Source of the DNA: Liolophura sinensis
Lineage: Eukaryota > Mollusca > Polyplacophora > Chitonida > Chitonidae
DNA length: 64,000 nt
Assembly: GCF_032854445.1 (NCBI RefSeq)
Contig: NC_088305.1
Span: 5,151,606-5,215,605, forward strand
Reading direction: 5' to 3'
The position numbers and the translations under genes were made by a program. Each line of letters starts with the position of its first letter. Position 1 is the stretch's first letter. Shown in pieces: positions 5,201 through 63,254 of this stretch. The notes beneath the pieces are model-generated. The model was not told the DNA's origin, did not search any database, and saw nothing but the letters and a program-made list of their open reading frames with translations.

Positions 5201-8200
5201 CTGAACTGATATCTCTGTGTTATACATGGCCGTCTTACCTCGTCCCGCTTGGTCTGTTGTTGTTGTATTTGTTTCTGAAGTGAGGCCGTGACCCGTTTGT
5301 GATGTTGGACTCCCCCCACCTTCTCTCCTCTATCCATCTGCTCTATCTCTGCATGCTGACAACACAAAATCTCAGCTACAGATTGGGCAAAATGCAATTT
5401 GTAAAGTTCATCCTGACTCAGATTTACTGTATGAACATTTTCTATTTATAATTTTCCCCTCTAAAGTTTTGTACATAAGTTCTCATAGGAAAGATACATC
5501 AACAAAATAATTGATTAATTTGAACCACTCACTTTTCACTTTTTACATGAACAAAGCACACACACCATGCTCCAGGATTCATCCTTGACTGTGCTACATT
5601 TATTATCTATTTGATTGGTGTTTTACGCCCTTCTCAAGAATATTTCATGCCAAGGGCTTGCATTATGGTGGGAGGAAACTGGGAAGATCCCTGGAAAAAC
5701 CTATGACCATCTGCAAGTTGTTGGCAGATCTTCCCATGTATGGCCAGAGAGGAAGTCAGCACGAGTTGAACTCACAGTGACCAACTCTGTGCGAGACTGT
5801 GCTATAATTTATTTATTTATTTATTTGAATGTTGCTTAATGTGTTTTACTAAATAAATGTTCACTTCAACAATGGTGATCATTATTAAAGACACTTCTAC
5901 ACACTGTAAATCTTCAACCTTTTTGATCGCTAAAACACTTTTCAGTCAAATTTATGCATACAATTGTGACACTCTAATGATTTTTAAGAGTCACTAGAAA
6001 GATGCAAGCTTCAAAAAACTAAGCAAATTATTTTTCTAGACAGAACAGTTCTCTCAGAATGTTTCAAAATACTTATCAGAGAGACGGGTAAGGTATCTGC
6101 TAGAACATGTCTATATCATACTGGTGACGAACAAACTAGACAGCGTCACAGAGATGCTACTATTCTTAACAAGGGAAATAGCTAAAAACGATTTTTAATA
6201 AATATTTCCAATAATTTACTATATTATAGTTCACCTACTTAATCATTGACATGAACGACCTGTTTATGTACCTTAATTCCTTCACCTTTTCACAAATGAA
6301 AGAGCAATTTTCAGTGCAATTTATGCTCATTTAAATTTGATTTTGGTGACAACACTACACTGGATGGTTGACCAATTTCAGGGCTTCACAAAAAGTATAA
6401 TTTTATCAGTCTACACAGAATAATGCCTTCAGAATATACTTGAGTAAACACCTTGTAAACATGTGAAAAGATTGAAAAATTACAGTACGGTTAGTTCCAA
6501 ACACATCTATCCAGTACTGCATGTAACACTACACAAAGTTCAATGCATCCTACTTACTAACAGAGTGCTACTTTCTAGTTTTCTACCCACAGCAAATCAC
6601 ACAGGGCAAAGAGCTCCCAGCTGCCATGTTAGTACTTCAGGTAACATGACATAAGGCTCCAGGACACACTCACCTTTGTTCTAGTCAACGGCATGCTAGT
6701 TTCTACATGTATTCACTGAATCGTTGACATTAAACAATGTCAGTAAATGCTTCAAGTCACACCACATGAAATTTTATGAAAATTCATTGTTTTTATACTC
6801 TGTCCTATTTCCTATCAACAGAACCACTGACAGGACAGAGAGCTTCAGCACTCGTGTTTCTCCTTACAAATTTCATTGCCTTCACACTCTGTCCTCTTTC
6901 CTATCAACAGAACCACTGACAGGACAGAGAGCTTCAGCACTCGTGTTTCTCCTTACAAATTTCATTGCCTTCACACTCTGTCCTCTTTCCTATCAACAGA
7001 ACCACTGACAGGACAGAGAGCTTCAGCACTCGTGTTTCTCCTTACAAATTTCATTGCCTTCACACTCTGTCCTCTTTCCTATCAACAGAACCACTGACAG
7101 GACAGAGAGCTTCAGCACTCGTGTTTCTCCTTACAGATTTCATTGCCTTCACACTGTCCTATTTCCTATCAACAGAACCACTGACAGGACAGAGAGCTTC
7201 AGCACTCGTGTTTCTCCTTACAAATTTCATTGCCTTCACACTCTGTTGTATTTCCTCTCCACAGAACCACTGACAGGACAGAGAGCTTCAGTACTTCATG
7301 TTATATCACACAAATTTCATTAACAACTCACCTTGTCTTCATACTCTGAGGCAATCTGCCGGATCTCTTCAGACTGCATGCCCACAATAGAGCCCACAGC
7401 ACTAGCCGTTAGGCGAGCCTATGACAAACATGCGAAAACAGAACCTATCAGCACACACTGAACGAACAGAACAAGAGAGAGAGACAGAGAGAGGGAGGGT
7501 GGGGGACGGATGTGGGGACAGGAGGTGAGACAGAGGGAGATTAAACCTTATTAGTCACAATGGCTGTTTCTGGTTTACCATTTCTTTTTTTCTGTTAGAC
7601 AAACATAAATTCGCGATTTTGAATATTTCACTTAATATATAATTCATTAACATGATTTAAAGACCTACTGGAGTGGAAGATCTGCACATGTTTGTCTTCA
7701 AAGCAAGCTTAACTGATAAGGACTGAGACAGTCTGAATTACTTTCCTAAATTGGAAAAAATATCAATGCATCAAAACCGCCATCACTAGTTTCGGAGGAT
7801 AGTACAGAAAAGAAAAAAGAAAAAAGTTTTTTGTCATTTCCAATTTTGCCTGGTGTGACATCATGCAAGAAGCTTGGTGTCACCCACTGCTGACACCAAT
7901 GACGTCATATTTTCAAATGCATTTGATGTCAGTCAAGCACAACCGCCTTACTCAACGTCACATCTAATTGTCTCATCGTCACATAAGGAATATTTTCCCA
8001 TCAGCAAAATTTTACGGAAACTGCCGAAGATTCTGTTTTTGAGGACTCTTCACTTACACGAGTTAAACAGTGTTATTTGTCGTAAATCTTTCTGAACCAC
8101 GTTGTTAGCTCTATTCCTTAGGGCATCCTTCATATTATTTGAAAAGGACTGCAGACGCACTTTAAATTAACATGATGTTACAAAAATGTGTTGTTGTTTT

Positions 8201-14200: not shown

Positions 14201-17200
14201 ATAGGTGAAGGAATAATGATGATTTCCAGTAAGAAGCTGCCATTGAATAAACACCTTGTGTCCAAGGGATAGAACAACAGCAATCTTTGAATATCAGCCA
14301 TGACCCATTTAAACGCAGATTTGAAAAAAAATGACATTCAAAAAAGAAACCTTAGTCAGATGACTCACCTTAACCACCTTCACAGAGCTGACAGCTTTGT
14401 CTTTTGTATTCTTGAATTCTTCATCCTTCAAAAATAACATCACAAGGTAAGCAAATAGTAATATAGCAGACTCATCTTCATACATGGAAAACCGGTTCAT
14501 CAACCTTTTCACATATGATAGACCTACCTTCAGTCCAATTTATGCACATTTATAATTTCATTTTGGAGACAAAACTACATTGGTTGGATTGCCACATTTC
14601 AGGGTTTCACAAAAAGTAGAACTTTAGCTGTTAACATAGATTAATGCCTCCAGAATTTGCTTGAATAAACACCTTGCAAACATGTGAAAAAGTTGAGGAA
14701 TAACAATAATCCAAAGACTGAAATAATTTTCTATTCAATATTTCAGCATTTTATTATGACGAATTACGAGAGAAAACATTAAAATTATGCAAATATCAGA
14801 TGAAAATACGATCTTTAGTATATTTTTTCATTAAGGAGAACAGGGTATTTGAAAATATGTTTGTATGGTGGGCATTTGAGACCATCTCTTGGTACACATG
14901 TTCTGTGCGTTATAATGTTCTAAATAAGGCTGTGATGGATGTCTAATAAATTTACTTCAATCCAAATTTGTTTATATCCAAAGACATGCATTTAATTATG
15001 ACAAATATTTATGAATATATTAAAAATATAACAGGTTGAGCACATTTCTTTGTTGAAAAGACCAATTTCTAGCCCAAATTTATCTAGAACATTATTGTGC
15101 ACAATTACCCTCAGAAGGGCAATGTTACACTGGTTTGACTTGCCAAAGTGCATAGTTTTGAGTCCATGTTCTTGCCAAAATCTCCAGTGTAACCTTTTCC
15201 ACAATGATGAGCTTTCTTGTGTGTGCTGTGATATAACAGATTAATGTACACATACATGTACATGGCTTCACTGTGGCTTCCCTATGTATCCCTGTGGCTT
15301 CTCTATGAATCCCTTTGGCTCCCTCATGTGACACTGTGACTTCCCTATGTATCACTGTGGCTTCCCTGTGTATCACTGTGGCTTCCCTGTGTATCACTGT
15401 GGGTTCCCTATGTATCCATGTGGCTTCCCTGTGTATCCCTGTGGCTTCCCTATGTATCCCTGTGGCTTCCCTATGTATCCATGTGGCTTCCCTATGTATC
15501 CATGTGGCTTCCCTATGTATCCCTGTGACTTCCCTATGTATCCATGTGGCTTCCCTATGTATCCCTGTGGCTTCCCTATGTATCATTGTGGCTTCCCTAT
15601 GTATCCATTAGACTTCCCCAGGTGTGCTGTGACTCTTGTTGAACTGTGACACAGAGAACAGCCTAATGCAATCCCCCATCCCCTATGTTTCTCTGTGACT
15701 CACCTCAGGTGTGCTGTGACTCTTGTTGAACTGTTGCACAGAAAACAGCCTGATGTAATCCCCCATCCCTTATGTTTCTCTGTGACTCACCTCAGGTGTG
15801 CTGTGACTTTTGTTGAATTGTTGCACAGAAAACAGCCTGATGTAATCCCCCATCCCTTATGTTTCTCTGTGACTCCCCTCAGGTTTGCTGTGACTTTTGT
15901 TGAACTGTGACACAGAGAAGAGCCTAATTTAATCCCCCACATGTTTCTCTGTCACTCACCTCAGGTGTGCTTTGACTCTTGTTGAACTGTGACACAGAGA
16001 ACAGCCTAATGTAATCACACATATGTTTCTCTGTGACTCACCTCAGGTGTGCTGTGACTCTTGTTAAACTGTGACACAGAGAACACCCTGATGTAATCCC
16101 CCTTATGTTTCTCTGTGACTCACCTCAGGTGTGCTGTGACTCTTGTTGAAATGTGAAACAGAGAACAGCCTAATGTAATCACCCACATGTTTCTCTGTAA
16201 CTCACCTCAGGTGTGCTGTGACTCTTGTTGAACTGTGACACAGAAAACACCCTGATGTAATCCCTCACATGTTTCTCGGAAACTCACCTCAGGTGTGCTT
16301 TGACTCTTGTTGAACTGTGACACAGAGAACAGCCTAATGTAATCCCCCATATGTTTCTCTGTAACTCACCTCAGGTGTGCTGTGACTCTTGTTGAACTGT
16401 GACACAGAGAACACCCTGATGTAATCCCCCATATGTTTCTCTGAAACTCACCTCAGGTGTGCTTTAACTCTTGTTGAAATGTGACACAGAGAACAGCCTA
16501 ATGTAATCCCCCACATGTTTCTCTGTGACTCACCTCAGGTGTGCTGTGACTCTGGTTAAACTGTGACACAGAACACCCTGATGTAATCCCCCACATGTTT
16601 CTCTGAAACTCACCTCAGGTGTGCTTTGTGCTTGTTGAACTGTGACACAGAGGACAGCCTAATGTAATCCCCCACATGTTTCCCTGTGACTCACCTCAGG
16701 TGTGCTGTGACTCTTGTTGAACTGTGACACAGAAAACACCCTGATGTAATCCCCCATCTCTTCACGAGTCTCTATAGCTCTCTTTACCAGCCACTGAAAG
16801 AAACAGGCCATCCTCTGTCTGGTCATTTGGTAGGTGATTTGTTTGTTTGTTCAATATAAAATATACGAATTTATTTAACAGTCAAACTGTTGTTTAATGC
16901 CACACTCGCAGATTTTCATTTCAAAGATGGTAATCAGTTTCACAGCTGCAGAACAAGGCCAATAAACCACCAACCTTTGGTATGTTGTGACTCAGGTTTA
17001 AAGAGGCTATACCATGTACTCTGGAGATGTTTGGTAAAAAAAAAAGTTAAATCAACTTTTATGCATTTACCTGGAATAGCTCAAAATTCTTGCCTTTCAC
17101 TAAAAATGTCACACTGTCTTGTACCTGTATCTGTTTATAGTGTTAAGATGATTCTGAAGTTTAAAAATGTGAGCAGCTTTATAAATTTTAGGAACGTTAC

Positions 17201-52300: not shown

Positions 52301-55300
52301 CTGACATTACTTTTCCAGTGGACTCGCCACGATATGGCTGAAATATTGCCGATGTGGCGTTAAGTCCTAATCATTCATTAATTTCCAGTGGTAATCGAAC
52401 CAGGAACTCTCAAAAAAAAAATGATCTGGTAAATTTAAAACAACGTTTGTTGACTGTTGAATGACGCTAGAATGTATTCTTTTATTGTAGCAGATTATTC
52501 TGTTAACCATATCACATATATTCATCCTAACATATATCCCATATCCCAGAATACATCCTAGCATCACTCAGACAACGGACTTTCTGTTAAAACTAACAGA
52601 TTATTTTTTTGAGTGAAGTCTTACCCCAACCGACCGCATAGCAGATCCACATGAGTTTAGCCCCCGGACTGAATGGAGTGACTATGATGGTGTGGAGATA
52701 CAGGCCCTCACAGAACATCCAGAAGTAATTACACAGGGTGAAGAAACGGGTGGTCACGTGTAAAACCCGACACCACATCTGAAACGAAGCGGACCAAGGT
52801 ACACACTGTGAAAAAAAACTCTCGCGTACATGTAAAATACAGCCATGCATTTGAAACGAAACAGATCACGTTACACATCTTGAAAAATGCATTGTTACAT
52901 GTAAAAGACGACACCACATCTGAAACGAAATGGACCAAGATAGCGCAGTGAAGAAAGTCTCCGGTACATGTAAAATACGAAACCATGTCACTTTTGCGGC
53001 TTCGAACATATAACCTTAATATACTACATTTCTTGTAGTAAATGACCATACGGCAGTATGGTTTTAGAGTTGGATGTTAGGAAATTCGCTGTAAAAAAGA
53101 CAAAACAATGCAGTCTATTGGCTGACATAGAAAGGTTGTCTTACTGTGTAGTATTTGTTATTGTAAAACAAATTACTCTCCACGCCTATTGTCCAGCATG
53201 CCACTTGTTTTGGCATAATTATGACGTCACCTAGGGCAATGCGTTCTTGTTGAAATGAAGCGCAAATCTGATAGTAATACTTTATTTATATATTTATTTG
53301 ATTGGTATTTTACGCCGTACTCAAGAATATTTCACTTATACGACGGTGACCAGCATTACGGTGGGAGGAAAACAAGCAGAGCCCGGGGGAAATCCACGAC
53401 CATCCGCAGGTTGTTGCCAGACCTTCCCAGGTACAGTGTAATACCTTTTAATTTAAATTACAATAATGTTATTGGACTGAAGTCCGAGCTCAACAGCTTA
53501 TTATGCGTACTTCTATATTAGTAGGGAAAGTTTAAGGGAAAAAAGCAAATTCAGTATGACGTTAGTACATCTTCACGATTTTAAGAGAATCTACTGAGAA
53601 ACAGAGCAAACTCAACACATATTAATCGATAACCCAACACAAGCTCGCCGCATATTAATCGTTATCCCAACACAAACTCAGTGCGTATTAATCGTTATTC
53701 CAACACAAACCCTGCGCATATTAATCGTTATCCCAAGACAAACTCAGCGCATATTAATCGTTATCCCAAGACAAACTCAGCGCATATTAATCGTTATCCC
53801 AAGACAAACTCAGCGCATATTAATCGTTATCCCAACACAAACTCAGCGCATATTAATCGTTATCCAACACAAACTCAGCGCATATTAAACGTTACACCAA
53901 CACAAACTCAGCGCATATTAATCGTTATGCCAACACAAACTCGGCGCGTATTAATCGTTATCCCAACACAAAACTCAGCGCATATTAATCGTTACACCAA
54001 CACAAACTCAGCGCATATTAATCGTTATATCAACACAAACTCAGCGCATATTAATCGTTATCCCAACATAAACCCTGCGCATATTAATCGTTACACCAAC
54101 ACAAACTCAGCGCGTATTAATCGTTATACCAACACAATTTTCAAGTAAACAAGATAATACACGTGTACCCATACAAGAACAATGGACATCCTCTTCAGCA
54201 TTCTAAACTTAGCTACGACTAAACATTCGCCAAGACAATTTTCAATAAAGCATGCGATTTATTCACGGATTCTTTGTCCATACTTATTCCCGCCCCGCCC
54301 CGTTCTTTGTTTTCTGCTCATTTTAGGTCGCGTATTAAGCTTTCGTATACGCATATCTTTACGTTTCTATATTTATTCATCGAGGAGAGTTGGGGGATAG
54401 TGCCCATTGGTGAAGCTGGGACTCCTAAAAAAGTAGAAGTGTTAAAAAGCCTGTTTCTAATTCCTTAAAAGACCACTGGTTGGCTGGTGTGGGAGATAAG
54501 AAAGTCCAGCTAGGCTAATTTGAATTTTCGGTACTGTGCATATAGGCCTACATGTTTTAATCCATGAAACTTTATCTTCGCTTTTGGCCAGTCAGCGTCG
54601 CTTATGTAATTCCTTAAAGGACTCACGGGATTTTCTGTGATGATGACGGCATCCAGGTAGATGAGTTTGTAGCTTAGAATCCAGACGATAGCGGATAGGA
54701 TGTAGGAGACGAAAAGGTGTTGATGAATCAAAACTCGATCACACTTCAGCTGTCTGAATGCAAACAAACGTGAGAAAACATTACTACCATCCATTAATTG
54801 TCACCCATAATTACCTGAAGTATCACAAGTGTGATTCTGGGGGTTGTGAGAGGCTGTTGGTTCACCGCGCTGCACTAACACGCTGGCCATTATAGGCCAC
54901 GAAGGCCATCGAACATCGGCCTCCAATAAAAATGGTCTACGGCCGTACGTGGGAAGGTCTGGCAGCAACCTGCGGATGGTCGTGGGTTTCCGCCTGGCAC
55001 TACCCGGTTTCCTTCCACCATAATGCTGGCCACCGCTGTATAAGTGAAATATTCTTGAGTACGGCGTAAAACACCAATCAAATAAACAAATAAATATAAA
55101 AATGGATATTCCGGGTCAATAATCACGAGGCCAATTCCCAAAACAACATTCAGCACAAATCACCAAAAGATCTAAGAAACTACATTGAGTACGAAATTAG
55201 GACGGAATCATGCAAATGGTGCTGGAAACACGCAGCAGTGTTCTAGGCGAATGAATGAAATCAGTGTCCAAATTGTGTATCATGCTACTCGTAGTTTGTA

Positions 55301-58300
55301 TGTTGTTGATAATCAAAATATGTTTCTCAGTCCAGATTGCAACTGTTCACATTGTCAACGTGGCTTGCAACTGTTCACATTGTCAACGTGGTTTCCACCT
55401 GTTCAAATTGTCAACGTGGCTATCTATAACAATCACCGATCTTGCAAATATTTAAATATGTACAATGATGGGGAGTGTTTATTACATATGGTATCCGTTT
55501 AAAATTCTGACTTTATTATGGCTTCGGTGGCCTTATGGTCAGAGTGTCCGGCAGGTCGTCGGGACACTCGGGATCAAACCCGGTACAGGTCATACCAAAG
55601 ACTTTAAAAATGATAATTGTTGCTGCATCGTTTGGTACGCAGCAAGGAGAGGTTAGAGGAAGGAAACAGGACTGGTTGACCCGGTGTCAGTATAATGGGA
55701 CTGGATGGGGTGTCATGTCTGATGTCTTCGGTACGATACTTCAGCTGTGGCAGCGCTTTGAGGGCATAGACTCCCCTTGCCACAAGAAGCCAAAGTATAT
55801 GTACACACACCTAATGACTCCTCGTCGTCACTTACTGAACAAAATGTTATATGACGATAAATCTCAAGCAAACATACATACATACATGTAGTCGGCTCTG
55901 TGGATCTATGGCTATTTAATATTCATCAATATAATGATCTAAATAAAGAATAAACCTTCAAGACAATGAAATGAGAGTATGGGGCGGGCAAGAGTTCGGC
56001 GTTTGCTTCACTCGATTAGCTCCGCTATTAAGAGCAATACAAAACGTCCTCAAAAACACAAGAGGCGTCTTGCTGTTTTCGTTCAGAAATATTCTTGAAT
56101 CACGATAGGGATTCTTGCAGACATGTTTATTAAGCAGGCAAAAGCCGTTTTCGATTATGCTGTGGCAATGCTCGTAGTTCACAGATCAAAGAAAACCAAC
56201 GAAACGTATAAACTGACGGTCATTGAAATAAGAGATTGTGACAAAGAGTTTCGAAAAAGGTAATACAAAAAATCCCACGAGACGAAATGCAAATGGAAGA
56301 AAGGTAAAAAAAAATTCCACAAGTGCAGATAACAACAGACTAATTTCTATGCTTATCGTTATCATACATACACGACTTGTGTATATATATATATATATAC
56401 TTCTGACGCTTTGAATGGTTTGTCATGCGATTGTTATTCCTAAGTGACAATGCAGAGGGAGCTTTGATAAGACCAGTTAACGGTGCCAGCTGTTCTCATT
56501 AGAAAGGTGAATCACATTTTATACTTACCTAAAGTAGAAAAATATCCCCAGAGCAACGGCCAGGAAGGTAATTGAGATGAAATACCCGCCTATGTACAGA
56601 TAAACAACCTGTTTATGCCCCTACAATCAACACATATAATATTTGTCAGGTGCCATGTTCGTTCACAATGTCAGCCGTCGTATAACTGAAATGCTCTTCA
56701 GAACCGGGTAAAACGCAAATCAAATCAAATAAATAAATAAATAGATAAATAAATAAATAAATATTCACAATGAATCAATATGTGACCGATGGTAACTCTT
56801 TCTTGACATTGATAAGATATATAGCGACAAGAAGACGAACAAAATTAAGAATATAAATCTATTTAAACTACACAGACACACCCATTGTCATTATCCATCG
56901 ATGTGCTTTATGGACCGTTGTCCTGTTCTACCAAACACCTAAGTTGCTTGGTATAGCCACTTTCTTAATGCGGCAATGTGCTTTCCAGACTGGTGTCTAA
57001 TTCAATCCATTGTGACAAACAATGAATAGAAATGCCATCCACAATCGCTCCGGAACAACCTGTGTACTTCTACGCGGGGCGTCCCTGTCCCTGTGTCAAG
57101 GATCGGTTCATATCAGCCCCACGGGCAAGGAAATGGAGAGAACAACAACAACAATAACAAAGGAAAGAAACACTTCTTTGACAATACTTAAAAATACTTA
57201 TGCTAGAGTTCTCCTTACCTCCAAGGATTCATTGTTGACGCAGCCCGTGTAGTTTGTCCAAGGGCGATTACTCTCCGGGTGTTCCCACCAAGTACCGTTC
57301 ACGGTACAGTCTTTGAAGGCTGTAGCTGGTGACAGAAGTGAACGCTATGATACAGTTTTATTCACAAACTAAATGTCTGGGCCTGGATTCACGAAAGATT
57401 TTTATTGCTGACGCATATCCGTTCAGCTTAAGCAACAAAATACTATACTTATGCAGTGTTTGACTTTCCAGATACGCTACATGTAGTACTTAAAAGTAAA
57501 ATTAATCTAAAAAGACTTAAAACTGCGTATTTCAGCAATTTAATGAACTTAAAAAGTTTCGCCAAACCGGGCCCTGATGTCCACAAAACGCACTGGGGTA
57601 GACTGTACATATTGCTTCTGGATATCTCGCTCCTTAAATTACTTATGGATATCTCGCTCCTTTCTTTGCTTATGAATATCTCGCTCATTGCATTGCTTAC
57701 AGATATCTCGCTATTTACACTGCTTACGGATATCTCGTTCCTTACATTGCTTATGGATATCTCGATCCTTACATTGTTTATGGATATCTCGCTACTTACA
57801 TTACTTATGGATATCTCGCTCGTTAAATTACTTATGGATATCTCGCTACTTACATTACTTATGGATATCTCGTTCCTTACAGTACTTTTTATATCTCGCT
57901 CCTTTCATTACCTATGGATATCTGGCTCATTTCATTACTAATGGATATCTCGCTACTTACATTACTTAAGTATATCTCGTTTCTTACGTTACTTATAGAG
58001 ATCTCGCTCCTTACACTGCTTATGAATATCTCGCTCGTTACACTGCTTATGAATATCTCGCTCGTTACATTGCTTATGGATATCTCGCTCGTTACATTGC
58101 TTATGAATATCTCGCTCATTGCATTGCTTACAGATATCTCGCTATTTACACTGCTTACGGATATCTCGTTCCTTACATTGCTTATGGATATCTCGTTCCT
58201 TACATTGCTTATGGATATCTCGCTACTTACATTACTTATGGATATCTCGCTCGTTAAATTACTTATGGATATCTCGCTACTTACATTACTTATGGACATC

Positions 58301-61300
58301 TTGTTCCTTACAGTACTTTTTATATCTCGCTCCTTTCATTACCTATGGATATCTGGCTCATTTCATTACTAATGGATATCTCGCTACTTACATTACTTAA
58401 GTATATCTCGTTTCTTACGTTACTTATAGAGATCTCGCTCCTTACACTGCTTATGAATATCTCGCTCGTTACATTGCTTATGAATATCTCGCTCGTTACA
58501 TTGCTTATGGATATCTCGCTCGTTACATTGCTTATAAATATCTCGCTCGTTACATTGCTCATGGATATCTCGCTCGTTAAATTGCTCATGGATATCTCGC
58601 TCCTTACATTGCTTATGGATATCTCGCTCGTTACATTGCTTATGGATATTTAAAGGCGGAACTAAGACGCTTTCAGTTTTCGCATACATTGTTGTCAACA
58701 TGATCCTCGTGTTATTTTATGAGACTGTGACATTTAACTTTGTGAAAAAACCGACCACCGGTAATTTCACTTCGATCTATCGTTATAATTACAGACTACG
58801 ATAGCAAAAGTTGTTTACTCAAGATACATAGAGATCACTGATAAATTGATACCATATCGCGGAAATATCAGGTAATAAAATAAATAATTACTGTCTCAAT
58901 TACTTCCAATTTTTGTGGTCTTTAATCTTGCAGGAAAATGTGGCATAGGTTTCAACTTAATCAATTTTCACTAAAATATGCTGCGATTGATTAAATGAAA
59001 TAAGAGCAAAAGTTTTTAACATTAATACAAGATTAATTAATAGCTTGTCTTTGGCCATACGTATAAATTGAAATCTCTGATTAATACTTCAAATTTATAA
59101 CTTTACGTAAATTATTTCTTTTCAAGATGCATCGCAAAAGTCTCTTGTTGCTATAAAATATTAATTTATCTGGCGGACAAATCTGCGTGGTCAATCAAAC
59201 GATTTTCTGTACATCTATTTGTGTTTTTTCACTTCAAAATTACAAAGCCAATGGGGAATATTCTCCGTCTAAAGTAATCCCAATCAAAGCTACGTAGTCT
59301 GTTGTCCATTCCTACATATCAAATAACGCTTTGTGCGCAAACCTACATAGTACTCAGGTATCACAACAGAGTATTTATCAAACCAGCTTGGACCCGAGGT
59401 GCCATTGCGCGGGACAATGTATACTCCACTACAGAATCTTACACCCGCACACCTTTGTCATAACACACATCAACTTTTGTGAAATCATCTCTTTAGTCTC
59501 TGACATACTGCGGTGTAACTTCTGATCTGGTTTACGAAAATCTTATTTGGTGTACCCAAAACAAATCGATCAAAACTCGCAACAGTTTTTATACGATTGC
59601 CATTTGATGTCAAAGCCTTCGTAGCCTAGAGCTGTAAAATTATCACACTTTGAATACGTAGTCCTCAATTGAGCGTCCAGCAAAAAAATACAAGTGAGAA
59701 AGGACAAAAATCAATAATCGATCAAAGATAAGATGATGAAGGCACACTGCTAAATTTAGTTGGAGGCCAGCGTTAGCTTTCGTCGAGCTGTGTTCGCCGC
59801 TACCCAAGGCGAGTGTCGATTTCAGCCTGATGAATTACCTCCCACCGTCCACTACTGAGCAGATGTTTCAAGCCCCGATCAATTTTACAAAAGGAAATAC
59901 CCTGCTATCTTTCTATGAAATGTTTCGGTAAGCTTTGCCTTATGTTATGTTCAGCACAATGTTATATTCATTATGCTGATTCTTCGAAACACTTAAAGAA
60001 AAGGCATATTTGAATGAAATAGAACAAAACCCACTGGCCTGATAGTCGCTGCAAGCCAGCGCTGCACATGTAACTATCTGAGCCAGCGCTGCTCATGTAA
60101 TTATCTGAGCCAGCGCTATACATGCAACTATCTGAGCCAGTGCTGTAAATGTAACTATCTGAGCCAGCACTGTACGTGTAACGATCTGAGCAAGCGCTGT
60201 ACATGTAGTCCTCTCAGCCAGCGCTGTACATGTAGCTCTCTCAGCCAGCGACGTGTGCATATCAGGAAATTATACACAATAATAAATAATGGCAGTTTCT
60301 ATAAGACGAAACTGATTAGGATGCATCTCAGGTTCCGAATCGAATCCAGCAATTGGCGATGGTTATCCGAGGCACGAGAGAATCTGCATTGTCGTGGCAC
60401 TACACTGACATGAATATAATTAGTGAAGACATTTTCTGGCGGTTGGAAAAAGGAAATAGCATTCTAAGGACTGACGAAAATGTTATCTATCTATACCGAT
60501 GCTAATTTCTTACCGGACAAACAGTGCAAAAGGCGCTAAGCAATTTATCCGGTCTCCATGGCGCCAGTCAAACCCCATAATACGGTCTTCTCATACTTAC
60601 CTATCGCACGTCTCCTCCCTAAGGGGAGGGAATATGACTTACAAAGTTTATGCCTCCCACGGAAAAGAAACCTAAATCTTATGAGTGATTCCCAACGTGA
60701 GTGGCTGTGACCCGGGGGATACATAGCTGGATTAGACCGTGGGGCTGTGGTGTTATGCTCACGCCGAGTGTCTCTGCTAGACCCAGCACCAACGATGCGC
60801 TATTGGAGATGATTGCGGAACTAAACCTTTTCAATGCAAATCCTATCAACGCTTGTACATCTCCGTGTACATTTATTTTGCATAAAGAGCTCGCCAGGAA
60901 GGGCCTTTGGTCATCTTGGGGACGCCTATGACCAATATTATGATGGTGGAAAGCAGACGCTAACTGTTCACATGACATGAGAATTTCATGAGATACTCCA
61001 GGGACAGGAACCATTTACAGGCACGCAAACTTGTACAGTTACCGTAAAACTACAATTCCCATAATAGCAAATTGTGTCCAATTGCGAATTTGTATGTTTA
61101 TCTTGAGGTAAGAAAAAAAAAACACTAAAAGCAAGATGTGTCCACGGTTTTGGAACTAAGAGAATTGACAAGAGACCGTATTTTACCAGTTGCGTGTGAC
61201 CATTTGCCAGCTGTTACACTGTCGTCGCTGCTCTGGGTTTTCTCTCTATGCTGTACATCTTAATTATTCTAACAATACTATTGCATATATATCTTAAATG

Positions 61301-63254
61301 TAGTGTTTTCAGTTTACGAGATTAGGAATGTGAGCCGCTTTAGATTGTTCCAAAGCACTGGTAGTTTTTAAACATTTTACCTACTTTTCAGCCGATATAC
61401 CACTTTGCTAACTTACAAACCGAAAATATACATTTTAAACAAAGCTCTTTTTAATCCAACTGGAAGGAAAAAATAAAACATTTGAAGATACCAGTCTTAA
61501 GGTAATAAATATTAATCACACATTTCAAACAACGTATTTTTGTGTCCTCGGGGGGGGGGGGGACTTCACTCTTAAGTAGTGATTATATATTTGCAACATT
61601 GTTTTCTTATGTAAAATATCCCAAGAGCAAATCTCAACTGTAACTACCTCCCGTGGAAGAAAAGAAACTTGGATTGGGAGGCAAGGCTACCACAGAGCTC
61701 GCCTTTAGGAGACACGTGAATCGAAAACTTCAGCTCAATACATTAAGTATTGGAATCGTGATAATTTACGGTAATTAATCGGTAATTTAACGCCGATCTC
61801 AAAAATGTTTCACTTATACGAAGGCGGCCGGCATTATAGTGGGATGAAACCCGACAAAATCCGGGGGAATCCCACGACCATCCGCAGGTTGTTGGCAGGC
61901 CTTCCCACGTACGTCCGGAGAGGAAGCCAGCATGAGCTGTTGTACTATTTGAGGTACCACTGCTAACATTTGGTTTAATTTTGGTAATTTACGGTATTTC
62001 GTATGCAATGGAATATTCTCTTCGTGTTATTGTGTTCTACATGTCTGGAAACCCTGAGCTCAATACATGCAGTACCACCCCTAAGATGTTGTCTACCATT
62101 GATTTTAATACAAAATACACTAAGTCAGGAATTCAGTAATTTACGATATTTTATATGTACACACCAAATCAACGATGGAATATCCCCCTCTTGATACTGT
62201 GCCCTACATGTGTGGCAACCCTGAGCTCAATACATGCAGTACTTTTTTTGAGATACCAACCCTAACATATTGTCCTACATTGATCATACAATATACTAAG
62301 TCAGGAATTCAGTAATTTATGGTATTTAATATATACACACCAAATCAAAGATGAGCTATCCCCCTCGCGCTATTGTGTGCAAACCCTGCGCTCAATGTAT
62401 GCAATACTTTTTAAGATATCACCCCTAACATTTTGTTTAACGTTGATTCTAACACACAATACACTATTGAGCTCTCCATACGTGCAAAACCTGATCTCAA
62501 TACAAGTAGAACTTTTTAAGATTTATTTATTTATTTGATTGGTGTTTTACGCCTTACTCAAGAATATTTCACTTACACGACGGCGGCCAGCATTATGGTG
62601 GGAAGAAACGGGGCACAGCCCGGGGGAACCCCCCAAGACCATCCGCAGGTTGCTGTCTGACCTTCCCACGTACGACCGGAGAGGAAGCCAGCATGAGCTG
62701 GACATTTTGTTGCTTTCCCTGTTATTGGGTATTGGACGCCGACGCCGACGCTCAGGGTACAACATAAGCTACGCGTGTGCCTTGTACAGGTCAGCTAAAA
62801 GCACTTCATACAGGGTCATATGCCAAAATCAAATGGGAATTCGCGACTAAATTACAGTTTATAGGCAATGTGGTGCATATATAGTATATGACTCAAATGG
62901 CTTGTCATAACGGAATAGACTGCGGAGCATATTTGCGCCAACCGCAACGGGCCAATTATAGTCGAAGGGTAAAAGAATGGCGCATTTACGTATAAATTGC
63001 ACTAATAATTTCCACTTCAATTCAAACTAGTTTTGCGTAAGCCGCCATTGACGATCCTCTAAATAAACTAACATGTTATAAGATAGGCGAAAAGAAAAGT
63101 AAATTATTATACAGGTGTAACAGTGATAAGCAAGCCTTACCTGTGGGATCAAACCCTTCTCCGTACTCGGGACAAAGTTGTGTTGTTCTGGTACCTGCTG
63201 GAGTGTCATCCCAACACAAAAGACCGTCAAACGTCCGATTACAGTAGAGTTTAC
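40270..63254 (-). CDS. class B1 (secretin-family) GPCR, calcitonin/DH31-receptor-like; N terminus outside window
   Basis: A plasma-membrane peptide-hormone receptor, in its family coupled mainly to Gs/cAMP. Twelve exons on the minus strand join in phase: 63254-63141, 57325-57219, 56620-56529, 54753-54627, 52778-52625, 50343-50277, 49342-49279, 48476-48391, 46356-46221, 45262-45221, 44286-44107, 40362-40270; 1262 nt, about 420 codons to the TGA. The extracellular domain shows [28 protein letters not shown] and [20 protein letters not shown], with five of the six conserved cysteines; the first is in the missing exon. Sequons: NRT, NGT, NYT, NES. Transmembrane signatures: [12 protein letters not shown] (TM3), [11 protein letters not shown] (TM5), [17 protein letters not shown] (TM6 side) and the 42-nt exon [14 protein letters not shown] (TM7). 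Spacing of the hormone-binding domain fits calcitonin/CGRP/DH31 receptors best; PDF or CRF receptors are alternatives. Confidence 0.93.
40363..44106. other. GPCR last intron, mostly unique sequence
   Basis: No exon is needed by phase here. A three-copy GTGAGACGTTCAAA repeat sits near 43262-43302, and an ATCGCGAGAT motif at about 43008, a form seen in CpG-rich promoters. Otherwise nothing was recognised. Confidence 0.45.
44107..44286 (-). CDS. GPCR exon: helix 8 and tail
   Basis: [20 protein letters not shown] then a Ser/Arg-rich tail to SQSLTAQ; 60 codons, phase 0. Several possible phosphorylation sites (SSKRSRTS). Confidence 0.9.
45221..45262 (-). CDS. GPCR exon: TM7 (42 nt)
   Basis: [14 protein letters not shown], the characteristic 42-nt class B exon, phase 0 to 0; skipping it would remove 14 residues in frame, as is known for some vertebrate family members. 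Confidence 0.95.
45360..45570. mobile_element. repeat-E copy
   Basis: ATCGTTGCTTAACGTTACAC, then ACCATTGACCTTTGGCAAGT and CCACGTGTG. It is shared with 16.9, 34.1 and 50.4 kb. Confidence 0.65.
46221..46356 (-). CDS. GPCR exon: TM6, ECL3, TM7 start
   Basis: [20 protein letters not shown] then [20 protein letters not shown] and LSSFQ; 136 nt, phase 2 to 0. Confidence 0.96.
46655..46775 (+). mobile_element. SINE-A 3' half
   Basis: GGGTTTCCCTCGGGCACTGC to ACGGCGTAAAACTACAATTA and ATCAAATAAATAAATGG. Confidence 0.83.
47395..47475 (-). mobile_element. SINE-A tail fragment
   Basis: TTGATTGGTGTTTTAACACT, then GGTCAGGTGGGAGGA; diverged. Confidence 0.55.
47475..47700. repeat. 24-bp array, about 5 good and several decayed copies
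   Basis: CGTGGTAGTTCATAGCATAC repeats at 24-bp spacing from 47481. Related GTTCATAGCATA words continue in places to about 48110. Confidence 0.8.
48240..48325 (+). mobile_element. SINE tail fragment
   Basis: GAAAAATTCTTGAACATGGA, then CCAATCAAATAAATACATAA. Confidence 0.6.
48391..48476 (-). CDS. GPCR exon: TM5 and ICL3
   Basis: [20 protein letters not shown] then YARETCQT; 86 nt, phase 0 to 2. Confidence 0.94.
49279..49342 (-). CDS. GPCR exon: ECL2 Cys and TM5 start
   Basis: [20 protein letters not shown] then F; 64 nt, phase 2 to 0. CW is the conserved ECL2 disulfide motif. Confidence 0.93.
50060..50220 (-). mobile_element. two tandem SINE-A tail fragments
   Basis: TTTGACTGGTGTTTTATACT and TTAATTGGTGTTTTACGCCG each start a tail of about 70-80 bp ending in CCAGCATTA or TCAGCATTA. 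Confidence 0.7.
50277..50343 (-). CDS. GPCR exon: TM4 end/ECL2
   Basis: [20 protein letters not shown] then ST; 67 nt, phase 1 to 2. It follows GWG with the usual class B proline. Confidence 0.9.
50397..50560. mobile_element. repeat-E copy, near full length
   Basis: ATTTAACAAAGTTTTAACGC, TCAGTTTTATGGGAGCAGGA, AAACCACCAACATTTGGCAC, CTTTTCCACGTGTGGCG. Confidence 0.7.
51135..51333 (-). mobile_element. SINE-A with intact tRNA-like head
   Basis: The plus strand runs from GCGGCCAGCATTATGGTGGG to GAGCCACGGAGGCCCC; the minus strand starts GGGGCCTCCGTGGCTCAGTC with A-box form, and GAGTTCAAGTC as B box. Confidence 0.88.
51507..51662 (+). other. candidate first exon and CRE promoter of an unknown nested gene
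   Basis: TGACGTCA at 51507-51514, ATG at 51568 in context CCAACATGG, 31 codons ([20 protein letters not shown] then [11 protein letters not shown]) and a consensus donor TTTCAG then GTAAGTT after 51662. It lies antisense in the GPCR intron between 50343 and 52625. No second exon was recognised; the product is not known to me. Confidence 0.3.
52318..52385 (+). mobile_element. SINE-C tail
   Basis: ACTCGCCACGATATGGCTGA then ATTGCCGATGTGGCGTTAAG and TCATTCATT. Confidence 0.8.
52625..52778 (-). CDS. GPCR exon: ECL1, TM3, start of TM4
   Basis: [52 protein letters not shown]; 154 nt, phase 0 to 1. It contains the disulfide Cys of WCR and the EGLYLH motif. About three decayed copies of its 5' end lie upstream. 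Confidence 0.96.
52779..53000. repeat. about three decayed tandem copies of the TM3 exon 5' junction
   Basis: GAAACGAA (minus-strand TTCGTTTC before the acceptor) recurs at 52781, 52853 and 52922; TACATGTAAAA recurs in each unit where the exon has CACGTGTAAAA. The unit near 52915 keeps CACCACATCTGAAACG, the same acceptor and first codons as the real exon. Spacing 69-72 bp. Confidence 0.8.
53222..53229. promoter_or_regulatory. CRE palindrome TGACGTCA
   Basis: An exact CREB/ATF consensus in a GPCR intron. Confidence 0.25.
53285..53435 (-). mobile_element. SINE-A 3' part
   Basis: TTTGATTGGTATTTTACGCC to CCATCCGCAGGTTGTTGCC and CTTCCCAGGTAC. Confidence 0.87.
53590..54150. repeat. 33-bp tandem array, about 17 copies
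   Basis: The unit CATATTAATCGTTATCCCAA then CACAAACTCAGCG repeats, with one- and two-base slips. It gives a long plus-strand frame, taken as a repeat translation. Confidence 0.93.
54627..54753 (-). CDS. GPCR exon: ICL1 and TM2
   Basis: [20 protein letters not shown] then [20 protein letters not shown]; 127 nt, phase 2 to 0. Class B ICL1 'LxCxRxxIHxxLFxSYIL' pattern. Confidence 0.93.
54925..55105 (+). mobile_element. SINE-A 3' two-thirds
   Basis: GGCCGTACGTGGGAAGGTCT to ACGGCGTAAAACACCAATCA and AATAAACAAATAAAT. Confidence 0.88.
55518..55850 (+). mobile_element. SINE-B, full length
   Basis: Head GCTTCGGTGGCCTTATGGTC, B box GGGATCAAACCC, body CAGTATAATGGGACTGGATG, GTCTTCGGTACGATAC, tail CCACAAGAAGCCAAAGTATA and CTCCTCGTCGTCA. 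It is the most complete copy of the family in the window. Confidence 0.88.
56529..56620 (-). CDS. GPCR exon: TM1
   Basis: [20 protein letters not shown] then [10 protein letters not shown]; phase 0 to 2; donor GTAAGT. Confidence 0.93.
56675..56765 (+). mobile_element. SINE-A tail with (AAAT)n end
   Basis: GCCGTCGTATAACTGAAATG then GGGTAAAACGCAAATCAAAT and a long AAATAAATA run. Confidence 0.82.
57219..57325 (-). CDS. GPCR exon: hormone-binding domain, Cys5-Cys6
   Basis: TAFKDCTV then [20 protein letters not shown] and VNNESLE, phase 1 to 0. Two acceptors six bases apart (57325 or 57319) both keep phase; the longer gives the same P-to-C spacing as calcitonin receptors. Confidence 0.92.
57615..58655. 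repeat. 27-bp array, about 38 copies, with 431-bp higher-order repeat
   Basis: The unit ATGGATATCTCGCTCCTTAC then ATTGCTT is repeated; blocks near 57670-57990 and 58101-58421 are almost identical at 431-bp offset. Long frames on both strands come from the multiple-of-three period. Confidence 0.93.
58660..60030. other. GPCR first visible intron, unique AT-rich sequence
   Basis: No exon, RNA gene or clear repeat was recognised in this stretch. Confidence 0.5.
60040..60250. repeat. 27-bp array, about 7 copies
   Basis: CTGAGCCAGCGCTGTACATG repeats at about 27-bp spacing with point changes. Confidence 0.88.
61785..61945 (-). mobile_element. SINE-A copy, 5'-truncated
   Basis: TTTAACGCCGATCTCAAAAA to CCGGAGAGGAAGCCAGCATG. 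It abuts the 167-bp array. Confidence 0.85.
61945..62518. repeat. about 167-bp tandem array, 3-4 diverged copies
   Basis: GAGCTCAATACATGCAGTAC at about 62055 and 62223, GCTCAATGTATGCAATAC near 62388, and a partial copy near 62492. AAGTCAGGAATTCAGTAATT is shared by two copies. Confidence 0.8.
62518..62705 (-). mobile_element. SINE-A copy
   Basis: TTGATTGGTGTTTTACGCCT tail, GGCGGCCAGCATTATGGTGG core, ending AGCCAGCATGAGCTGGAC. The head is missing. Confidence 0.88.
63141..63254 (-). CDS. GPCR exon: hormone-binding domain, Cys2-Cys4
   Basis: [20 protein letters not shown] then [17 protein letters not shown]; phase 1 at both ends. Acceptor TTGTACAG, donor GTAAGG. Confidence 0.94.

Follow-up and report, generated by a model that had tools for sequence, protein, structure and literature searches.

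Tandem repeats that span an exon/intron boundary were named 'mirages' in the amphioxus Adh3 gene, and the same papers also describe boundary repeats in the amphioxus globin (BflGb6/BflGb9) and TnC genes and similar ones in PGBD5 (PMC3087553, PMC3902484). Length and somatic instability were reported for the Adh3 mirage (PMC3087553, PMC3902484), and RT-PCR suggested regular splicing across the amphioxus arrays (PMC3087553). Judged by its structure, the array at exon 5 of CCDC93 in the chiton Liolophura sinensis is a mirage from a new phylum, and the class to which it belongs is known but little known. As in the amphioxus accounts, where the repeats measure ~10-160 bp, the units span an exon/intron boundary and many carry splice signals, the authentic exon is intact and both 5' and 3' boundaries are affected. 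The chiton differs in being a mollusc and in having 11 further exon-bearing donor arrays (of up to ~40 units) in two partial samples of its genome; splicing and length instability were studied in amphioxus, whereas the chiton arrays were analysed as DNA. Among the papers listed by literature searches (chiton, mollusc and wider) there was no report of boundary minisatellites outside the lancelets, and in the available text of a paper on cone-snail introns minisatellites appear only in the title of one reference (PMC3862624). The number of genes involved appears to be new, and this number together with the new phylum is likely to be the news. The intron-gain model of Rogers (cited in PMC3087553) likewise involves duplication of a stretch holding a splice signal; unlike in that AG/GT proto-splice-site model, the CCDC93 copies sit within an intron and no new intron is seen.

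The L. sinensis assembly that was searched comprises 609,464,459 bases in 632 contigs, and the stretch of DNA examined (64 kb, hereafter the window) lies on contig C11, with the CCDC93 array at C11:5167221-5168400. The genome paper gives 609.5 Mb in 632 scaffolds, PacBio HiFi reads with a mean length of 8,347 bp at 14x coverage and RNA-seq from five tissues (digestive gland, foot, gill, gonad and heart; PMC11068029); a published correction changes the species name to Liolophura sinensis (PMC12441733). Contig C99 holds seven COX1 occurrences (one match shorter) spaced ~15.5 kb apart in one orientation and is probably a multimer of mtDNA units that the assembly joined head to tail; a single COX1 copy lies on C632. 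The mitochondrial contig has a gene order of mollusc type, which speaks against an amphioxus host, a candidate raised by the mirage papers and rejected; nor did a search yield a GFP-family match, although this negative does not establish that the family is absent. Elsewhere in the window are a 27-bp minisatellite with a 431-bp higher-order repeat (57611-58649), similar ORF pieces at 53225-53518, 54804-55115 and 62539-62847 that are perhaps a dispersed repeat element, and a run of 200 N (1674-1873; an assembly gap or withheld stretch).

CCDC93 exons are collinear on the minus strand from 19001 down to ~5220 (tblastn with human CCDC93 as query). The exon beside the array matches human CCDC93 residues 120-154 without gaps (phmmer against PDB entry 8f2u, chain 8f2u_N; E 1.5e-12), and with the neighbouring exons in order on the same strand the gene is CCDC93, as the earlier note had proposed. 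This exon is 99 nt long and in phase 0 at both ends; its number holds if one exon precedes 19001, as the acceptor at that position suggests. The features of the locus, in window coordinates, are:

16695..16793, minus strand: CCDC93 exon 5, the terminal unit of the array (phmmer, tblastn; acceptor tttctttcag from the sequence)
16689..16697, minus strand: authentic exon 5 donor GAG|GTGAGT, with GT at 16694-16693 (sequence)
15616..16694, minus strand: 13 copies of the exon end and intron start, 80-87 bp apart (TRF, unit table, alignment)
15959..16613, minus strand: nine intact extra donors in 80-82-bp units, the G of GT lying at 16613, 16533, 16451, 16369, 16287, 16205, 16123, 16041 and 15959 (unit table, motif check)
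15872..15880, minus strand: copy ending at 15878 whose donor is lost and now reads GAGGGGAGT (unit table)
15703..15877, minus strand: two of the 87-bp units at the distal end, which number three; the donors at 15790 and 15703 are intact (unit table)
15616..15702, minus strand: last copy (end ~15617), in the 87-bp form, donor lost, CCTGGGGAAGTC (sequence, unit table, alignment)
15271..15606, no strand assigned: unrelated 21-bp minisatellite abutting the distal end of the array (TRF)
6779..7321, minus strand: 89-bp array in another CCDC93 intron, a near miss without exon sequence (TRF, comparison)

TRF reports a period of 82, 13.7 copies and a score of 1686 over 15619-16756; the unit table and alignment resolve exon 5 and 13 downstream copies reaching ~15616, the number of repeats into intron 5 that had been claimed. 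Exon-like ends lie on the minus strand at 16695 (the real exon), 16614, 16534, 16452, 16370, 16288 and 16206, followed by 16124, 16042, 15960, 15878, 15791, 15704 and ~15617. Each unit combines the last ~63 nt of exon 5 with the first ~19 nt of intron 5 and so spans the exon-intron boundary, in agreement with the earlier reading of the unit, and the acceptor and ~first 36 nt (about the first third) of the exon are absent from it. The octamer AGGTRAGT is intact in 11 of the 13 copies, so many but not all units retain the splice signal; the ladder of near-identical donors described earlier is thus real, but its dozen extra members come down to 11. At the copy ending at ~15617 the lost donor reads GGGGAAGT. 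That the real exon forms the terminal unit is borne out at 16695, and this position is no additional coincidence, since geometry requires the unit still continuous with the exon body to lie 5'-most. Spacing is 80-82 bp in the proximal units and 87 bp in the three distal ones, which carry 5 bp missing from the 82-bp units; from this comparison the 82-bp form looks derived.

The authentic coding exon is undamaged beside the array (ungapped match to human CCDC93, tblastn). The 82-nt boundary sequence has 14 matches across the 609-Mb assembly, all inside the CCDC93 array (a single locus in one haplotype). Tandem exon duplication, as in mutually exclusive exons, also places exon sequence in tandem copies within a gene; unlike such duplications, the CCDC93 array repeats only the exon 3' end and donor, not a whole exon with its acceptor. 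Two further arrays in CCDC93 were rejected as exon-derived: the 89-bp array, in which most units carry TTTGTAAGG, begins ~5 nt past the end of the exon at 7420-7327, just inside the intron, and a 96-bp array matched none of the exons tested.

The units had also been called homogenising, a view that is weakly supported. The exon is as similar to the copies (89.1% identity) as they are among themselves (88.2%, a difference of ~12%). Two types, CATCAGGGTG and CATTAGGCTG, take turns along the ten proximal units, exon 5 being of the first; when all 14 units are counted, 11 of the 13 steps alternate (permutation p 0.025). Mean identity at lag 2, however, shows no significant excess over lag 1 (p 0.25), and several supports in the unit tree are low. 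A GTG codon common to exon 5 and four copies of its type is a hint that the exon may have taken part in recent exchange. Divergence of the donor nonamer in the CCDC93 array is 0.016 versus 0.061 for the rest of the unit, which could mean that the donors are maintained. Eight arrays have a donor in their consensus; in six of them the nonamer has diverged less than the remainder of the unit and in two it has diverged more, CCDC93 being the strongest case of preservation; selection on donors within arrays was rejected for want of a consistent signal across these eight. Differences between copies and exon fall on the three codon positions in 22, 8 and 32 cells (7, 7 and 10 variable columns), a pattern that was rejected as a sign of constraint because the cells are not independent.

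A genome-wide search for donor ladders, defined as three AGGTRAGT octamers at 70-100-base steps, found 3,112 places, compared with 1,230 when the motif was reversed; as single octamers the two occur at almost the same frequency (50,973 and 47,894). The first sample consisted of 100 of the 3,112 matches, which correspond to 21 arrays near one end of C1 (to 5.20 Mb on the plus strand and 4.54 Mb on the minus strand); within this span the matches listed give 21 donor arrays versus five reversed-motif arrays. All 21 were fetched and 20 tested, L017 being left out as a locus taken up entirely by its array. For each locus a single ORF beginning at or close to the array was tested, picked by hand from up to three longest and not always the longest. 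Eight of the 20 arrays start with a recognisable coding exon end as their 5'-terminal unit. Six of the exons score above Pfam cut-offs (annexin, ankyrin, SUFU, Core-2/I-branching enzyme, SNF2 domain and prominin), one matches RPTOR in PDB (E 1e-6) and one matches the HEAT part of a 'Helicase-like protein' (PDB, E 3.8e-11). That protein, which we take to be Mot1/BTAF1, is also the one matched by the SNF2 exon (7zb5, E 2.6e-18). These two BTAF1-like exons (L021 and L022; G000 C1:4178239-4193641) lie 12 kb apart on one strand and in protein order, so that a single BTAF1-like gene probably bears two donor ladders, with 48-bp and 33-bp units. The remaining 12 of the 20 tested arrays gave no protein match in Pfam or PDB; they include a polycystin-like ORF at L020, which was excluded from the confirmed exons.

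The second sample used a ladder of the stricter motif GAGGTGAGT, for which the excess is weaker (252 versus 175 reversed, 1.4-fold). Listing 100 of the 252 matches gave 21 arrays, 19 of them new, over C1-C6, and 18 of the new arrays were tested (L062, filled by its array, was left out). Exons of RyR, VPS9 and Apc1 score above Pfam cut-offs, and a weaker SH2 exon falls below (Pfam E 0.0026; FES in PDB, E 0.002); counting the SH2 exon as a match, 14 of the 18 are unmatched. The unmatched arrays of both samples may be purely intronic. An ORF at L066 that, to our eye, resembles DIP2 had no match and is not a confirmed exon; it was nevertheless kept in both comparisons below.

In 14 exon arrays (eight of the first sample, L039, L061, L066, L069, L070 and L076) the last 20 exon nt recur downstream at 15-20 of 20 matches, whereas 20-mers taken 110-245 nt ahead of the donor have no more than 11-14 matches. 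The weakest case is L022 (15 versus 13), in which only ~12 exon nt are repeated; the RyR array (L069, G000 C6:89836-91636) has the longest exon share, its ~100-bp units closely matching the coding exon. Scaling the match counts, from the matches listed, suggests that donor arrays with an exon number roughly one to a few hundred in the genome. Extrapolation by density was rejected, since the sampled C1 stretch holds 100 of the 3,112 places in <1% of the genome.

Twelve reversed-motif arrays served as controls and ten were tested (L029 and L031 being filled by the array). Protein matches were found in two of the ten and the controls are therefore not clean: L039 (VWC) turns out to be an exon-end array carrying donors, and at L033 (7tm_1, E 2.6e-22) the coding ORF ends 116 nt before the array and has no similarity to it. 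Acceptor ladders, searched with TTTTNCAGG, number 433 versus 125 reversed in the genome-wide ladder counts. The 3' flanks of 14 listed arrays were taken, leaving out four further places of one C2 family, and two of the eight ORFs tested gave matches:

G000 C2:25316314-25317564 (L056): YjeF_N exon, exon start and acceptor repeated upstream
G000 C1:36215052-36216302 (L046): AhpC-TSA_2 exon, exon start and acceptor repeated upstream

The former is presumably NAXE-like and the latter PRXL2A-like. In both, the real exon is attached to the 3'-most unit, so that the last acceptor, not the first, must serve for the normal protein.

Read past the authentic donor of CCDC93, the frame runs into a stop codon 33 nt on. 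All 11 extra donors sit 3' of this stop, the first of them at +81. Splicing at a copy donor would truncate the transcript, which by established NMD logic would probably then be degraded. Since the 5'-most unit alone is continuous with the exon body, splicing at its donor yields the ancestral mRNA, and we infer from the DNA that this donor is the one used. Among 15 donor arrays that bear an exon (CCDC93, a set of nine including L039 and a set of five including L061 and L066), splicing at the first extra exact donor would cause a stop or frameshift in 13. The frame stays open in L022 (+33), where it remains so past three extra donors, and in L018 (+150). Under a simple random model 1.3 such harmless arrays are expected, a number that the two observed in this small sample approach, as would be the case if extra donors were seldom used; frequent use of copies should favour harmless arrays, which is not clearly so.

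These observations are probably best explained by a minisatellite that grew over a splice boundary and was tolerated, since the site attached to the exon still gives the normal mRNA. Tandem duplication of a segment that chanced to span the exon 5/intron 5 boundary would have seeded a minisatellite, which then would have expanded by slippage or unequal exchange; the message would stay unchanged while the 5'-most donor serves, the copies departing with the intron. In a minisatellite-rich genome (38 TRF rows in the window) exon ends would be caught in this way at many genes, on donor and acceptor sides, and capture of boundaries is supported by the recurrence at other genes, the donor-ladder excess and the acceptor-side arrays. 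The copies would mostly be passengers and the arrays near-neutral, as the regular splicing reported for amphioxus arrays of the same build argues (PMC3087553). Counted against this explanation are the weaker excess for GAGGTGAGT, the unmatched arrays, the low donor-nonamer divergence in CCDC93 and the unclean controls. Alternatively, an active process such as R-loop formation or breakage of donors during transcription might make minisatellites arise preferentially at exon ends, which we regard as doubtful but the least improbable of the alternatives. Donor ladders do exceed the reversed motif, also as 21 versus five arrays among the matches listed in the same C1 span, and a rough chance estimate of ~2-5 donors caught compares with at least eight seen; this estimate, however, takes intron numbers as assumed and array density from a single window, acceptor arrays also exist and the stricter motif is in just 1.4-fold excess.

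An expression rheostat, in which some transcripts use a copy donor, gain a stop and decay so that copy number tunes CCDC93 output, would fit the stop at +33 ahead of all 11 extra donors and the well-preserved donor nonamer. It is unlikely given the regular splicing reported for amphioxus arrays (PMC3087553), the inconsistent preservation of donors over the eight arrays (six lower, two higher) and the placement of the arrays at unrelated genes. Similarly improbable is the wider proposal that ladders end one to a few hundred coding exons and that copy number tunes splicing fidelity or mRNA output gene by gene; if true, it would amount to an unstable, fast-evolving layer of splicing control over genes such as BTAF1-like, RPTOR, SUFU, RyR and CCDC93. 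Each unit might also supply a 27-nt in-frame mini-exon and so protein length variants, since many units have an acceptor-like pyrimidine run with CAG, phase 0/0 and intact donors, and the 33-bp ladder of L022 leaves the frame open. Exons of 27 nt are hard to define and in-frame arrays are not clearly over-represented (two of 15, 1.3 expected), which makes this very unlikely. That the CCDC93 array is an assembly artefact is hardly credible: the same assembly does contain a probable concatemer error, the seven mtDNA COX1 copies ~15.5 kb apart on C99, but HiFi reads averaging 8.3 kb at 14x (PMC11068029) can span a 1.1-kb array, the ~12% difference between copies lets them be placed and the same type of array recurs at other genes.

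Under minisatellite growth across the boundary the array most likely has no function, and its value lies in the insight it offers into splice-site choice. How the spliceosome chooses among sites of equal quality has long been asked, mostly by way of a few engineered duplications. The chiton genome provides a set of natural experiments: in each, a single donor attached to the exon is followed by near-identical copies, from several to tens of them, and the genes concerned are conserved, so that splicing at the wrong donor would mostly wreck the frame. RNA-seq from five tissues exists for the species according to the genome paper (PMC11068029), so the question of donor choice can be tested at once. 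The occurrence of lancelet-type boundary minisatellites in a chiton suggests that unrelated genomes rich in minisatellites can give rise to them, a point of relevance to models of how introns and exons are gained.
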